Below are positions 9,732 to 21,701 of a DNA stretch of 64,000 nucleotides, piece by piece; the stretch's first letter is position 1, and every line of letters starts with the position of its first letter. The position numbers and the translations under genes are program-made. Where the stretch lies: IMG/VR virus record IMGVR_UViG_3300032246_002701, positions 1 through 64,000 of that record. One strand, given 5' to 3'. Below the pieces are notes generated by a model, which worked only from the letters and a program-made list of their open reading frames with translations, did no database searches and was not told where the DNA came from. The stretch comes from a virus.

Positions 9732-9778
9732 GCAAATTAAATTTTTTATAGGTACGCAAACACTTTCGGAGAGCCTTG

Positions 9779-10015
9779 ATGTCTATTCCTACCGATATTG
9801 AAAAAGAAAATTTAGAAGCACACGTCGAACTTTGTTCTCAAAGGTATGATGCTCTTGAGAAGCGGTTGACCAGTGTGGAAGAAAAAATAGTGACACTACA
9901 AACTACTATAGAAAAAAGTCATTTATCAACTATAAAGGTATTGATAGGCACTGCGGGCACTGTGATAGCCAGTGTACTTGGTGTTGTGATAGTGTTGCTT
10001 ACTAAAGGCGGTTAA
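9779..10015 (+). CDS. Small coiled-coil protein with C-terminal membrane segment
   Basis: 78 residues: an N-terminal coiled coil (RYDALEKRLTSVEEKI) followed by one hydrophobic helix (residues about 52-74) and a short basic end. This layout is shared by XhlA-like holin partners and by tail-membrane adaptors. CGGAGAG precedes the ATG; a TTG one codon upstream is less likely. A lysis role is possible but no endolysin is adjacent. Confidence 0.6.
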   Translation: MSIPTDIEKENLEAHVELCSQRYDALEKRLTSVEEKIVTLQTTIEKSHLSTIKVLIGTAGTVIASVLGVVIVLLTKGG

Positions 10016-10018
10016 AAT

Positions 10019-10390
10019 ATGAAAATTTCGGAATTAGTATCAGAACAAACTATAGGCACTACTGGTTCGACTACAGGAACTCCCGGACAAGTAGGCCAAG
10101 TAAGTCAAACTGCTCCAACAACTTCTGCAACTGCAACACCTACAACCGACCCCAATGTACAAAAATTAGCAGCAATGCTAACACAAAATAAAATTATTGA
10201 TAATGAAAATCAGGTAAATGATTTTATGGCTGCTAAAACAGCTACTGATACCGGAAAGCCCTTAACACCTCAACAACAGGCGGTCATGGCAAGATTAGGA
10301 CCTGCAGTTCTTAAAAATAAAACACTAGATCAGAATTTAGATCTTTTGCTAAAAACAATGTCTGCACAAAAACCTGGTTCTTCTGTTTAA
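10019..10390 (+). CDS. Hypothetical protein with Thr/Pro/Ala-rich linker
   Basis: 123 residues: an N-terminal MKISELVSEQ helix resembling the capsid-targeting-like starts in this window, a low-complexity Thr/Gly/Pro/Ala segment (about 12-55), then a helical domain. No known domain. It begins 3 bases after the preceding stop, so it is probably translated with it. A small internal head protein is one possibility. Confidence 0.5.
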   Translation: MKISELVSEQTIGTTGSTTGTPGQVGQVSQTAPTTSATATPTTDPNVQKLAAMLTQNKIIDNENQVNDFMAAKTATDTGKPLTPQQQAVMARLGPAVLKNKTLDQNLDLLLKTMSAQKPGSSV

Positions 10391-15895: not shown

Positions 15896-17410
15896 ATGAT
15901 CACAGTGATCAAGAGAAACGGGGATCGTGTTCCCTTAGACATCAATAAAATTCAACGCCAAGTTGCTCATTCTTGTAAGGGTATCGACAGTGTTAGTCCT
16001 AGCATGATTGAGATCAAGGCTCAGATTGAGTTGCATGACGGCATGAGCACAAAAACCATTGACGAGTTATTACTCAAAGCCATGGTTGATTTAGTTGATG
16101 AATCGGAAAATTCTGAGATCAATAATGTAAATTATCAATATGTAGCAGGTCGTCAAAAGGTCAGTATGCTACGCAAAGAAGTATATGGCAGTTATACTCC
16201 TCCTGCTATCTATGACATTGTAAAGAAAAATGTAGATTTAGGTATGTATACTCCTGAACTACTAGAATGGTATACTCAAGATGAGTGGAATATTATTAAT
16301 CTGTTTATTGATCACGACAAAGACGAAAATTACACATACGCCGCTGTGGCCCAATTGGCAGAAAAATATCTAGTACAGAACCGTGCCACAGGGCAGATTT
16401 ATGAAACCCCCCAAGTGCGTTATGCCGTAGCCGCAGCCACAGCATTTCACAATGAGCCCAAAGAAACAAGATTAAAACTAGTCAAAGAATACTACGAGTG
16501 TGCTAGCGATGGACACTTTACATTGGCCACACCTGTACTGGCCGGACTAGGAACTACTACCAAACAGTTTAGTTCTTGCGTTCTTATTTCTAGTGACGAT
16601 ACGTTGGACAGTATATTCGCAGCAGGCGAAATGATGGCCAAATACGCCTCAAAACGAGCCGGAATTGGCCTGGAAATTGGTCGAATTCGCCCCTTAGGAG
16701 CCCCGATTCGCAATGGAGAAATCAAACACACGGGTCTAGTACCTTTCTTGAAGAAATGGTTTGCAGATCTACGCAGTTGCAGTCAAGGCGGTATTAGGAA
16801 TGCCAGTTGCACAGTTACCTTTCCTGTATGGCATTATCAGTTTGAAGATCTTATTGTGCTTAAAAACAATCAAGGCACAGAGGAGACTCGTGTTCGGCAG
16901 ATGGATTACAGTGTGGTAGTCAATGCTCTGTTTTGGCGTCGTTACAAAAACGGCGAAAACATTACACTGTTTGATCCGCATGATGTGCCTGATCTATACG
17001 AAGCATACTATCGAAATACTGCAGAGTTTGAAAAACTATACCTGCAATACGAACAAGATAAGACAAAGAAAAAGAAAGTTGTATCAGCAAGTGAAATATT
17101 TAAAAATGGTATTCTTAAAGAACGTACTGATACTGGGCGAATTTATCTAGTTAACATCGACAATGTGATCAATCAAGGACCATTTGACACCACAGTGGAC
17201 CCGATATATCAATCGAATTTGTGTGCCGAGATACTTTTACCAACTTACCCTTTTCAAAGTTTAACTGATGAAGGAGAATTTAAACTAACCCTTGACAATG
17301 GGGAAGAAATTACCTTGTTAGGAGAACATATGGTTTTATTAAAAGACGGTACTCGTAAAAAAGTTCGTGAATTAACAGAGGATGACGATATTGATAATTT
17401 ATTAATATAA
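15896..17410 (+). CDS. nrdA: Ribonucleotide reductase alpha, N-terminal fragment
   Basis: This 504-residue fragment carries the ATP-cone (about 1-90), the NrdA N-terminal domain and half of the catalytic barrel. SSCVLISS near 227 holds the first redox cysteine (C225 in E. coli), and SNLCAEI near 442 holds the thiyl cysteine plus the catalytic Asn and Glu (N437, C439, E441). Homology to normal NrdA stops at TDEGE near 461. The remaining ~42 residues (TLDNGEEITLLGEHMVLL onward) are foreign and resemble a Hint/intein block-B segment without the other intein blocks. The rest of NrdA is encoded 800 bases downstream, beyond a homing endonuclease. Two chains could assemble into an active enzyme, as reported for a similar split in Aeromonas phage Aeh1. 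Confidence 0.9.
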   Translation: MITVIKRNGDRVPLDINKIQRQVAHSCKGIDSVSPSMIEIKAQIELHDGMSTKTIDELLLKAMVDLVDESENSEINNVNYQYVAGRQKVSMLRKEVYGSYTPPAIYDIVKKNVDLGMYTPELLEWYTQDEWNIINLFIDHDKDENYTYAAVAQLAEKYLVQNRATGQIYETPQVRYAVAAATAFHNEPKETRLKLVKEYYECASDGHFTLATPVLAGLGTTTKQFSSCVLISSDDTLDSIFAAGEMMAKYASKRAGIGLEIGRIRPLGAPIRNGEIKHTGLVPFLKKWFADLRSCSQGGIRNASCTVTFPVWHYQFEDLIVLKNNQGTEETRVRQMDYSVVVNALFWRRYKNGENITLFDPHDVPDLYEAYYRNTAEFEKLYLQYEQDKTKKKKVVSASEIFKNGILKERTDTGRIYLVNIDNVINQGPFDTTVDPIYQSNLCAEILLPTYPFQSLTDEGEFKLTLDNGEEITLLGEHMVLLKDGTRKKVRELTEDDDIDNLLI

Positions 17411-17421
17411 TTGGTGGGCAA

Positions 17422-17458
17422 TAGTATTTCTAACTAAATACATTAAGGAGAAATACTA
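17422..17458 (+). promoter_or_regulatory. Late promoter inside a hairpin covering the endonuclease RBS
   Basis: TAGTATTTCT (17422-17431) pairs perfectly with AGAAATACTA (17449-17458). The loop holds ACTAAATA (17433-17440), close to the late consensus, and the AAGGAG ribosome-binding site (17445-17450) runs into the 3' arm. This matches the late-only translation control known for the T4 intron endonuclease I-TevI. Confidence 0.65.
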
Positions 17459-17459
17459 A

Positions 17460-18221
17460 ATGAAAAATTATAAAATTTATTGCCATACTATTAATAATAA
17501 AAAATACATAGGTTATACAGAAAAAGATATTGAAGAAAGATTAAATGAACATATTAAGGATAGTAAGAAAGGATCCGAAACTCATTTTCACAGAGCCATT
17601 AGAAAATACGGAAGCGATTGTATAATAACTGAAAAAATAGATGAATCGTTAACAGAAGAAGAAGCCAAATTAAAAGAAATTTATTATATAAATTATTTTG
17701 ACGCTTATAAAAATGGATATAATATGACGCCCGGAGGTTCAGGAGGAAATACAAAATCCAAATATTCAAAATCTCAAATGGAAAACTGGAGTTCGAATAG
17801 AAAAAGATTAAGTTCCGGAATGAATAATGGAAACGCAAAACCAAATATTAAAAAAGAGGACATTATTACAGAATTATATAATTTTGTTAGAGATGAAAAT
17901 AGAATAGGAAGCAATATACTTAGAAAAGAAATTGATCAATTATTAAAAGAAAAATTGAACATAAGTAGTACAATGTTAAAAAATCGAGGAATTAAAAACC
18001 ATTCAGAACTAATTCGATTAGTTAATGAAAAATTAGGAACTGAAGATAGCATTGAATATGATCCATATTATCGAAGCCCTTCACAAAGACTATATGCTTC
18101 GAGATCATCATCGACGTGGGCGTGGGTTACTGATGGTTTACAAAATAAAAGAATCAAAGAAGAAGACATAATAATTTTTTTACAAAAAAACAAAGGTTAT
18201 AAGCAGGGAAGAAAACTATGA
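17460..18221 (+). CDS. GIY-YIG homing endonuclease
   Basis: 253 residues. The GIY-YIG nuclease domain occupies about 1-95: KIYCH and KYIGYT carry the two conserved Tyr strands, the Arg lies in EERLNEH and the metal-binding Glu in LKEIYYINYF. Residues 100-253 form a Lys/Asn-rich DNA-binding region with a helical repeat and a C-terminal RLYASRSSSTWAWVTDG motif. The gene interrupts nrdA between codons for the active-site cysteines. Its stop overlaps the start of the nrdA C-terminal fragment (ATGA). Its base composition is more AT-rich than its flanks, consistent with acquisition as a mobile gene. Confidence 0.9.
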   Translation: MKNYKIYCHTINNKKYIGYTEKDIEERLNEHIKDSKKGSETHFHRAIRKYGSDCIITEKIDESLTEEEAKLKEIYYINYFDAYKNGYNMTPGGSGGNTKSKYSKSQMENWSSNRKRLSSGMNNGNAKPNIKKEDIITELYNFVRDENRIGSNILRKEIDQLLKEKLNISSTMLKNRGIKNHSELIRLVNEKLGTEDSIEYDPYYRSPSQRLYASRSSSTWAWVTDGLQNKRIKEEDIIIFLQKNKGYKQGRKL

Positions 18222-19204
18222 AAATAATTAAAAAAGAATGTACCAGAAGAGAAGGTCGTGTGGCCTTATGTACCTTAGGGTCGATCAATTGGGGTGCATT
18301 CCGTAACCCGCAGGATATGAGAAAAGCCTGTCGTGTATTAGTACGCAGTTTGAGCAATCTACTCAACTATCAAGATTTCTTATCAGTACAAAGTCGACTG
18401 GCCAATCAAGATTTTGAACCACTAGGTGTAGGTATCACCAACTTAGCCTATTGGCACGCTCGACGTAACTTCAAGTACGGTGAAGAGAATAGTCTTGCTG
18501 AAGTCAAACGCTGGATGGAACATCAGGCCCACTACTTAATTGAATCCAGTGTTGAACTGGCTCAAGAACGTGGTGCCTGTGCTCGCAGTGAGCATACCTA
18601 TTATGGTCGTGGAGTATTTCCTTGGGAGCGTAGAAATCCTAATGTTAACGAACTAACAGATTTCACACCTAGTCTAGATTGGGAGCCACTTCGTGAGCGT
18701 ATGAAACAATATGGAATTCGTAATGCTACACTAATGGCAGTGGCTCCTGTGGAGTCGAGCAGTGTGGTACTAAACAGCACCAACGGCATTGAAATGCCCA
18801 TGGAGTTAATTTCGGTTAAGGAAAGCAAGGCAGGATCGTTTGTTCAAGTGGTCCCAGAATATCGTCGACTGAAAAATCGTTATCAACTGATGTGGGATCA
18901 AACTGATTGTGTGGGTTATTTGAAAACTGCTGCGGTTTTGGCCGCATACATTGATCAAAGCCTAAGCACCAACACTTTCTATTCGCCAAAACATTTTAAA
19001 GATGGCAAAGTTCCCGGAACCTTGATTGCTAAGAATTTAATGTTAGCCTATAGATGGGGAATTAAAACTATATATTATTCACTAATAGATAAAGTAGGTT
19101 CTAAAAATGTGTTAAACACACAGACTTCTAATCAGTCAGAGTTGCAACCAGTTACAGTATATGCTGAGTCAGATGATGAGGATTGTTTGGCCTGTAAGTT
19201 ATAA
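18218..19204 (+). CDS. nrdA: Ribonucleotide reductase alpha, C-terminal fragment
   Basis: 328 residues. After a short foreign leader (MKIIKKECTRREG) NrdA homology resumes at RVALCTLGSINWG, where Cys18 is the second redox cysteine (C462 in E. coli). WGIKTIYYSLID near 283-294 carries the Tyr pair of the radical path (Y730/Y731), and the C-terminal DCLACKL provides the shuttle cysteines. With the 15896 fragment all catalytic residues are present, so the two parts probably form one working subunit. Translation is coupled to the endonuclease by an ATGA overlap. A class II aldolase gene follows 16 bases later. Confidence 0.9.
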   Translation: MKIIKKECTRREGRVALCTLGSINWGAFRNPQDMRKACRVLVRSLSNLLNYQDFLSVQSRLANQDFEPLGVGITNLAYWHARRNFKYGEENSLAEVKRWMEHQAHYLIESSVELAQERGACARSEHTYYGRGVFPWERRNPNVNELTDFTPSLDWEPLRERMKQYGIRNATLMAVAPVESSSVVLNSTNGIEMPMELISVKESKAGSFVQVVPEYRRLKNRYQLMWDQTDCVGYLKTAAVLAAYIDQSLSTNTFYSPKHFKDGKVPGTLIAKNLMLAYRWGIKTIYYSLIDKVGSKNVLNTQTSNQSELQPVTVYAESDDEDCLACKL

Positions 19205-19908: not shown

Positions 19909-20601
19909 ATGAGAAACAGAGAATATATAAAAATTTATAAACAACATTATGGAGAGATACCTAGAGACTCACAAGGAAGATCCTACGACATACATCATAT
20001 TGACGGGAATTACACCAACAACGATATATCCAATCTAGTAGCATTGAGCATAGAAGAACATTTTAATTTACACAAAAAACAAGAGGATTGGGGTGCAGCT
20101 TGGTCTGTTGCAAAAAGATTGAAAGTTAGCCAGCAGGAAAAAAGTGAAATTTCTAGAAATTCAAATTTAGCTCGTGCCAAAGCTGGAACTCACTGGAGTC
20201 AAGTAACTAGCAAGAACGGAACTCACCCATTTCAAAATTTAGAATTTCAAAGAAAAATGATGGATAAATGTTTATCTAATGGAACACACTCTGCTCATCA
20301 GACTTGGACCTGTGAAAAATGTAATAAAACCGGTAAACATATGGTCAATTACAGTAGATATCATGGTGATAATTGTGGAGTAGTTAGTGTGTCGCAAGGT
20401 AGAGTTTGGGTGAATAACGGATTAGTCAGTAAGATGATTAACAAGAATGAGTTGGAACAGTTAAAAACAGAGGGTTGGGTAGCAGGGAGAGGATCAGCAG
20501 AATTGACACCCAGACGTGCAAATGCTAATGGAGCCACAGGCCGGGCTGATCCGTATGTTAGAAAAACAAACAGACCGTATAACAGAAAAGAGAAAAAATA
20601 A
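19909..20601 (+). CDS. HNH homing endonuclease
   Basis: 230 residues. The HNH core is YDIHHIDGNYTNNDISNL near 28-45 followed by EEHFNLH; the His pair and Asn are visible. A basic middle region and a CEKCNKTGKH Cys pair near 133-142 may bind DNA or zinc, and the C-terminus is Arg/Lys-rich. The gene is free-standing, placed between the aldolase and nrdB, and its stop overlaps the nrdB start (TAATG). In T4-like phages such genes spread by cutting nearby conserved genes, so nrdB or the intergenic site is the probable target. Confidence 0.85.
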   Translation: MRNREYIKIYKQHYGEIPRDSQGRSYDIHHIDGNYTNNDISNLVALSIEEHFNLHKKQEDWGAAWSVAKRLKVSQQEKSEISRNSNLARAKAGTHWSQVTSKNGTHPFQNLEFQRKMMDKCLSNGTHSAHQTWTCEKCNKTGKHMVNYSRYHGDNCGVVSVSQGRVWVNNGLVSKMINKNELEQLKTEGWVAGRGSAELTPRRANANGATGRADPYVRKTNRPYNRKEKK

Positions 20602-21701
20602 TGAGCAAAGCACAGTATGACATCAGCAAGCAGACTAATTATCTTAAAAGAAAAATGTTTCTAGATCCAGAGGGTCCGGTAACTGTACAAAGATTTGAAG
20701 AAGTTAAATATCCTAAGATTCAAAAGTTCGAAGAGTTAGCCCGTGGCTTCTTTTGGGTTCCAGAAGAGATCAGTCTCACCAAAGACAAGATGGATCACAA
20801 AGAAGCCACTGAAGCAATTAAACATATCTTTACCAGTAATCTACTACGTCAGACTGCATTAGACAGCATTCAAGGCCGCGCACCTAGCCAAGTTTTTAGT
20901 CCAGTGATTTCAATCCCTGAGTTAGAAGCACTGGTCTGCAATTGGAACTTTTTTGAGACAAACATTCACTCAAAGAGTTACAGTCACATTATTAGGAATG
21001 TTTATGGTGTGCCCAAAGAAGAGTTCAACAAAATTCACGACACGGCTGAAATTGTTAATATGGCTGCTAATATTGGTCGCTACTATGAAGATCTTCATAC
21101 TCTCAACTGCCGTAAAGAGTTGGGTCAAGAAGTTGATGAATTTCTTCACAAGCGAGCCATATGGATGGCCCTACATGCATCCTACGCTCTCGAGGCCCTA
21201 CGGTTCATGGTATCATTTGCCACTAGTCTGGCTATGGTAGAAAACAAGATCTATATTGGTAATGGAAATATTATCAGTCTTATTCTACAAGATGAATTAC
21301 TGCACACAGAGTGGACAGCCTGGCTAATCAATAATGTGGTCAAGGATGACAGTGATTTTGCTAAATTACAAGAACAGTGTGCAGACGAAGTTTATAAACT
21401 ATACATGGAAGTGATTCAAGAAGAAAAAGGTTGGGCAGATTACTTGTTTAAAAAGGGAGTGGTCATTGGATTAAATTCCACAATATTAAAAGACTTTGTG
21501 GACTATACCGCATTTACTCGTCTTAAAGATATTGGAATTAAATATCTGGAAGATCATCCTAAAACTAGCCCTATACCTTGGTTTAACAAACATGTTAATA
21601 TTAATAAAAAACAAACTGCTCTACAGGAAAACGAAAGTACCAATTATGTTATTGGGGTAATGAGTGATGCTGTAGATTATGATCAATTACCAGATTTATG
21701 A
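20601..21701 (+). CDS. nrdB: Ribonucleotide reductase beta subunit
   Basis: 366 residues, class I diiron radical subunit. Ligand motifs: PEEISLTKDK near 51-60, WNFFETNIHSKSYSHI near 114-129 with Glu, His and the radical Tyr, EIVNMAANIGRYYEDLH near 150-166, and QDELLHTEW near 229-237 with the last Glu-His pair. The first Glu-His spacing reads E-T-N-I-H, one residue longer than E. coli ETIH; I do not know whether this is usual in phage NrdB. It supplies the tyrosyl radical to the split NrdA. Translation is coupled to the HNH gene upstream. Confidence 0.93.
   Translation: MSKAQYDISKQTNYLKRKMFLDPEGPVTVQRFEEVKYPKIQKFEELARGFFWVPEEISLTKDKMDHKEATEAIKHIFTSNLLRQTALDSIQGRAPSQVFSPVISIPELEALVCNWNFFETNIHSKSYSHIIRNVYGVPKEEFNKIHDTAEIVNMAANIGRYYEDLHTLNCRKELGQEVDEFLHKRAIWMALHASYALEALRFMVSFATSLAMVENKIYIGNGNIISLILQDELLHTEWTAWLINNVVKDDSDFAKLQEQCADEVYKLYMEVIQEEKGWADYLFKKGVVIGLNSTILKDFVDYTAFTRLKDIGIKYLEDHPKTSPIPWFNKHVNINKKQTALQENESTNYVIGVMSDAVDYDQLPDL

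Follow-up and report, generated by a model that had tools for sequence, protein, structure and literature searches.

How could a ribonucleotide reductase (RNR) work when its large subunit has been cut into two genes between the active-site cysteines, and what are the foreign sequences that stand at the cut? The question is raised by the nrdA locus of a viral DNA stretch of 64,000 nucleotides (positions 1 to 64,000 of IMG/VR record IMGVR_UViG_3300032246_002701, which is 65,511 bases long; hereafter the window), in which two open reading frames (ORFs), NrdA-N and NrdA-C, flank a GIY-YIG endonuclease ORF (Table 1). The explanation that we favour, with a probability of roughly 70%, is that a mobile, non-splicing cassette has made a two-chain class Ia NrdA whose chains would be clasped together by a tail on the N part and a leader on the C part.

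The split itself is confirmed. As proposed in the initial annotation, a GIY-YIG ORF separates the thiyl cysteine, C443, from the second redox cysteine, residue 18 of the C part; the ORFs and the RNR barrel profile of Pfam (523 positions) agree on this, NrdA-N covering positions 1-222 and NrdA-C the adjoining positions 223-522. Both parts keep their catalytic residues, also as annotated, namely C228, N441, C443 and E445 in the N part and C18, Y286/Y287 and C323/C326 in the C part, which presumably have the roles of their counterparts in E. coli NrdA. Each part further carries a foreign end. NrdA-C starts with the short leader MKIIKKECTRR, and NrdA-N ends in a tail that begins directly after the native PF..[DE]EG motif and has 45 residues (460-504) rather than the ~42 first proposed. 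The stop codon of the endonuclease gene overlaps the start codon of NrdA-C (CTATGA). Intact relatives read ...NLCQEILLPTKPFQRIEDPEGRIALCTL... at the split site, and most of the 80 NrdA loci retrieved with the window C part as query are continuous across it (...PFQRIEDPEGRIALCTL...). The locus therefore has what marks a genes-in-pieces RNR, a two-gene NrdA with an endonuclease gene in between and a unique tail and leader, although its tail family differs from that of Aeromonas phage Aeh1.

The same arrangement recurs in other viral contigs. Window-type tail and leader are both present in L004, L006, L009, L010 and L017 from the C-part query, and L018, represented by its C part only, has the same leader. 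Scans of IMG/VR with tail profiles returned 39, 49 and then 55 loci; 53 of these last 55 are nrdA contigs with a homologous tail, some near-identical copies included, and the other two are cis-inteins in other genes, matched at block B. A pooled set of 287 NrdA loci, which was not deduplicated and includes relatives fetched around two further members, comprises 217 intact and 59 split loci, the remaining 11 being truncated or undetermined. The tail is of the window type in 55 of the split loci, while two have true split inteins at the NLC motif (L068, L172) and two have Aeh1-like tails (L078, L167). A scan of genome contigs with the tail gave no relatives, and the GIY-YIG protein as query against viral contigs found a single distant locus. 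The tail is shared by 53 other contigs, and in phage Aeh1 the HNH gene mobE interrupts nrdA at this very point, which together put the split beyond chance.

This recurrence bears on the outcomes that the initial annotation had named as fatal to its proposal, RNA splicing or a sequencing frameshift that would restore a single NrdA chain. GIY-YIG enzymes are frequently found in group I introns, which lends the idea of RNA splicing some appeal, but Rfam gave no match in the window between 17000 and 18600 at E-values up to 1 and no intron match in ten related loci at gathering scores, and two relatives, L102 and L108, have no spacer at all; by Rfam and by these spacer-free loci, no group I intron RNA structure surrounds the endonuclease gene. 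With many contigs in agreement, it is highly improbable that RNA splicing or frameshifting yields a single chain here, or that the split is an error of sequencing or assembly.

Comparison with intact alleles shows that the cassette is exchanged between them. On a tree of the NrdA C core (135 rows; removal of near copies reduced the window-type rows from 52 to 19), the split label is scattered. It needs 12 changes, at least six of them required by branches with strong support, and the sister of the window is an intact allele, L001. Aligned with L001, the window has 1,041 base pairs (bp) in place of 64 bp, between flanks of 95.2 and 93.1% identity; between L224 and L225, 1,543 bp replace 58 bp and the flanks are 93.8 and 94.8% identical. 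The exchanged DNA extends into nrdA proper. Over the 14 codons that precede the tail, the window has 55% nucleotide identity to L001, compared to 97% upstream, and in eight split-intact pairs these codons are 55-74% identical and the upstream DNA 81-97%. Control comparisons of this stretch between intact alleles gave means of 0.85-0.98, depending on the relatedness band, versus 0.55-0.68 between split and intact alleles. The divergence is thus confined to split-intact pairs, the signature of co-conversion of the flank, and this, together with sporadic occurrence against intact alleles, is the behavior of a homing element. The window endonuclease, recognised by its GIY-YIG domain match, would be expected to cleave the empty nrdA site.

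The resemblance of the tail to block B of Hint (intein) domains, which the initial annotation had noticed, was borne out by several profile comparisons. The Pfam family Intein_splicing matches 16 of 18 distinct tails, with a best E-value of 0.0012 and all Pfam tail matches under the curated cut-off, and two NCBIfam intein models match 14 and 9 of the 18. Compared with block B of nine phage inteins, the tail profile aligned over all 45 columns with a score of 49.6 and a probability of 95.8 (200 column-shuffled profiles reached a maximum of 11.0, and the reversed profile 3.8); since six of the nine inteins originated from the tail searches, the test was redone with the three from outside these searches and was positive, though modestly so, at 18.5 versus a shuffle maximum of 15.0. 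Both loci outside nrdA in the open IMG/VR scan are likewise block B of cis-inteins. Alternatively, the tail may be an unrelated small beta-structure that has converged on a block-B-like form. The shortness of the segment, the modest independent score, matches of Big_4 to 11 of the 18 tails and a tail-profile hmmsearch of PDB sequences in which no intein was found (best E 0.1, a cupin) speak for such convergence; the 45-column alignment, far above its shuffled controls, and the identity of both other loci in the open scan make it improbable.

Since the extension of the N part contains a Hint block B, with a His invariant across the nrdA tails, one might also think of an active split intein that has tail and leader as its halves and joins the two parts through protein trans-splicing. 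The other elements of such an intein are absent: there is no block A with Cys, Ser or Thr at the N junction, no nucleophile conserved at either end (15-19 distinct tails compared) and, in a leader of 11 residues only, no C-terminal intein (IntC) blocks F and G with a final His-Asn ahead of Cys, Ser or Thr. Real split inteins in nrdA (L068, L172) look complete. Fractured genes with split inteins, reportedly described by Dassa in 2009, share with the window a two-part gene, an endonuclease gene in between and a Hint sequence ending the N part; L068 and L172 are the true cases of this kind in nrdA, from which the window differs by its absent block A and IntC blocks. Because these blocks are absent no trans-splicing is expected, and the chance that it occurs here is very small. 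Judged by its sequence, the tail is a block-B segment of a Hint domain, resembling an intein scaffold and apparently without splicing function, and the leader may correspond to the start of an IntC. L094 and L099-L101 (e.g. L099:5500-6162) have a complete cis-intein at NLC, the thiyl cysteine motif, side by side with the tail in one N fragment, so that the tail is not simply the remnant of an NLC intein. As a separate observation, L055 (1016-3981) and L123 (3058-5524) contain an atypical split intein in nrdA upstream of SQGG, with an N fragment of ~20 residues that has an initial Cys, a larger C fragment with a THN end, and another ORF between the two.

The initial annotation had suggested that the tail is perhaps the trace of a lost intein. 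The tail is under purifying selection, the ratio of nonsynonymous to synonymous substitution rates (dN/dS, Nei-Gojobori) having a median of 0.113 and a maximum of 0.22 over the 21 of 190 pairs with unsaturated synonymous sites; the N and C cores of the window, compared with intact L001, gave 0.041 and 0.051. Next to a constant tail and leader, the spacer changes: several GIY-YIG-like types occur, and L092, L097 and L099 have an HNH-like ORF on the opposite strand, types other than that of the window being assigned by eye. In L009 the spacer is a deletion remnant of an endonuclease of which L085 has the full gene. L102 and L108 have no spacer DNA, the ATG of the C part overlapping the stop codon of the N part, and keep both tail and leader. 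Endonucleases are thus replaced and lost, and the GIY-YIG enzyme, exchangeable and dispensable among relatives, does not define the arrangement. Given its low dN/dS and its persistence beside a changed, deleted or absent endonuclease, the tail is no decaying trace; it moves with the insertion and, as described below, has homologues on split UvsW proteins. The initial interpretation is therefore supported in part: the Hint origin is retained, and the lost intein gives way to a conserved mobile element whose most likely role is docking. We also note that the N fragment of L102 (135-2093) has 653 residues, ~147 more than the others, and may contain another insertion in frame, for instance a cis-intein.

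Genes-in-pieces RNR of phage Aeh1 is said to have been reported by Friedrich in 2007 and Crona in 2011, the docking tails being reportedly essential according to the latter. The parallel with this system and its different endonuclease family, drawn in the initial annotation, holds: Aeh1 NrdA-a/MobE/NrdA-b has the same gene interrupted at the same inter-cysteine site, an endonuclease gene in between, and a foreign tail and leader. Aeh1 differs in its HNH endonuclease and its tail family, whereas the window tail, probably Hint-derived, is widespread and occurs with several endonucleases or none. In Aeh1 NrdA, retrieved to compare the two systems, the tail at this site is basic (+6) and the leader acidic (-9). 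The Aeh1 tail scored 23.3 against those of L078 and L167 (shuffle, 17.5) and 7.9 against the Hint type, and by these scores belongs to the family of L078 and L167 and is unrelated to the Hint-type tail; in L167, the gap between the halves is too small for an endonuclease. Two unrelated tail families of opposite charge thus serve one and the same site.

Another explanation of the tail and leader is that the native barrel interface alone reunites the two parts, the extensions being tolerated by-products or having some other role, such as in expression or DNA recognition. In its favour, the split probably falls in a loop between strands, to judge from the structure of NrdA, and no structure displays a clasp, the AlphaFold models being of low confidence. 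It accounts poorly for the strong protein-level constraint on the tail and its invariant residues, for the retention of tail and leader in the endonuclease-free L102 and L108, for two tail families of opposite charge that both last without an endonuclease, and for the reported need for the Aeh1 tails; we regard it as unlikely, if worth keeping in mind. Active Aeh1 RNR is stated to contain both polypeptides (PMC3267527), and Aeh1 and free-standing and intein-borne endonucleases are described and fractured genes cited (PMC3653736, PMC2988022, PMC3267527, PMC10448857, PMC3322345). We found no description of Hint-type docking tails in the literature searched, which excluded Crona 2011 and Dassa 2009.

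Homologous tails were also found on a second protein. Among named phages, weak tail matches pointed to inteins (L131, L132, L139-L142) and also to two-part UvsW helicases, the N halves of which terminate in a block-B-only tail (Dickeya phage LIMEstone1, Vibrio K471). The LIMEstone1 and K471 tails scored 40.0 against the nrdA tails, versus a shuffle maximum of 22.4, and a search with the UvsW-type tail returned 19 Dickeya and 58 Vibrio records. Two Dickeya loci have an endonuclease gene between the uvsW halves (the HNH enzyme I-LimI in LIMEstone1), and the C half has a short leader, MKPTK. Besides being another gene, split uvsW differs from the window nrdA in the loss of the block-B His and in four Vibrio loci that are endonuclease-free with a start-stop overlap. 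Two further tail searches in phages gave no match in one case and 58 records (51 from Vibrio) in the other, Bifidobacterium and Lactobacillus matches included. PHROG family phrog_13169 ('DNA polymerase') matches 17 of the 18 tails; the window tail corresponds to the C-terminal stretch of its profile. Aeh1, phage 25 and 44RR gave no match to this family, and as its source gene was not found, a third gene with the tail is only a lead.

In the mechanism that we propose, ~14 nrdA flank codons and the Hint block-B tail would be followed in the cassette by an endonuclease gene, which can be exchanged, and by a leader that is short and basic. Intact nrdA alleles would be cut by the endonuclease, of GIY-YIG type here, and repair would copy the cassette in, after which the N and C parts would be made as separate chains. 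Tail and leader, probably the residue of a Hint domain stripped of splicing blocks A and G, would form a non-covalent clasp holding both chains in register, with the barrel closing around C443 and the second redox cysteine and working with NrdB. By analogy with Aeh1, tail and leader are expected to dock and the two-chain enzyme to be active.

Several points weigh against this reading. Gains and losses are indistinguishable on the tree, and part of the pattern could therefore reflect recombination back to intact alleles. No complete intein was found at this exact site among the 287 loci, and the brevity of the leader precludes a test of its homology. The sub-threshold Pfam matches, the Big_4 matches, the origin of most inteins in the larger profile test and the modest result of its repeat all limit the case for a Hint origin. 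The AlphaFold models are too low in confidence for use, the predicted local distance difference test score being 61.9 in the tail model and 42.4 in that of the N part.

The spread of the interruption among related phages, and its persistence where the endonuclease has been lost, suggest that it brings its own clasp, so that the broken gene survives. We put at about even odds the broader proposal that such self-neutralising split-and-clasp cassettes form a distinct class of mobile element, which would spread by homing and divide an essential gene, and whose Hint-derived clasp would reassemble the product without RNA or protein splicing, would stay as a subunit interface after exchange or loss of the endonuclease, and would be used in at least two genes (nrdA, uvsW). 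If true, inteins would be a source of new protein-protein interfaces. The Aeh1 case had not settled whether mobile DNA generally remedies gene breakage by means of docking tails, or where such tails originate. The loci described here form a natural series, in which the extensions stay constant beside different, deleted or no endonucleases and pass between alleles; uvsW adds a second gene, and Aeh1-like tails add a second family at the same nrdA site. Hint block B is the likely origin of the tail, the route from splicing intein to docking interface becomes testable, and small natural protein clasps (45 + 11 residues) are suggested.

Table 1. Features of the split nrdA locus and of nrdB in the window
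Feature	Position	Strand	Size or basis
NrdA-N ORF	15896-17410	+	504 aa
NrdA-N native residues 1-459: ATP cone, all-alpha domain, first barrel part	15896..17272	+	Pfam; C228, N441, C443, E445
Co-converted nrdA flank, 14 codons 3' of the thiyl cysteine codon, diverged from intact sister, cassette-borne	17225..17266	+	Nucleotide identity vs L001
Foreign tail, 45 residues (460-504), Hint (intein) block-B-like, proposed half-clasp	17273..17407	+	Profile comparison, dN/dS
GIY-YIG endonuclease ORF, 253 aa, proposed homing endonuclease	17460..18221	+	Pfam PF01541, E 9.9e-7
NrdA-C ORF	18218-19204	+	328 aa
Foreign leader MKIIKKECTRR (11 residues) of NrdA-C, proposed second half-clasp	18218..18250	+	Sequence
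NrdA-C native residues: remaining barrel, second redox Cys, Y286/Y287, C-terminal CxxC	18251..19204	+	Pfam
nrdB, partner subunit	20601..21701	+	Pfam Ribonuc_red_sm, E 3.4e-38

Two minor observations concern the surroundings of the locus and its possible host. An HNH ORF (Pfam HNH_3) lies at 19909-20601 of the window, between an aldolase-like gene and nrdB; the alignment of the window with L001 is gapped at this ORF, which may thus be a second homing gene. L004, a phage contig close to the window group, has a betaproteobacterial-type (permuted) transfer-messenger RNA gene at 9757-10092 (RF01850, 100 bits), a hint of a betaproteobacterial host.
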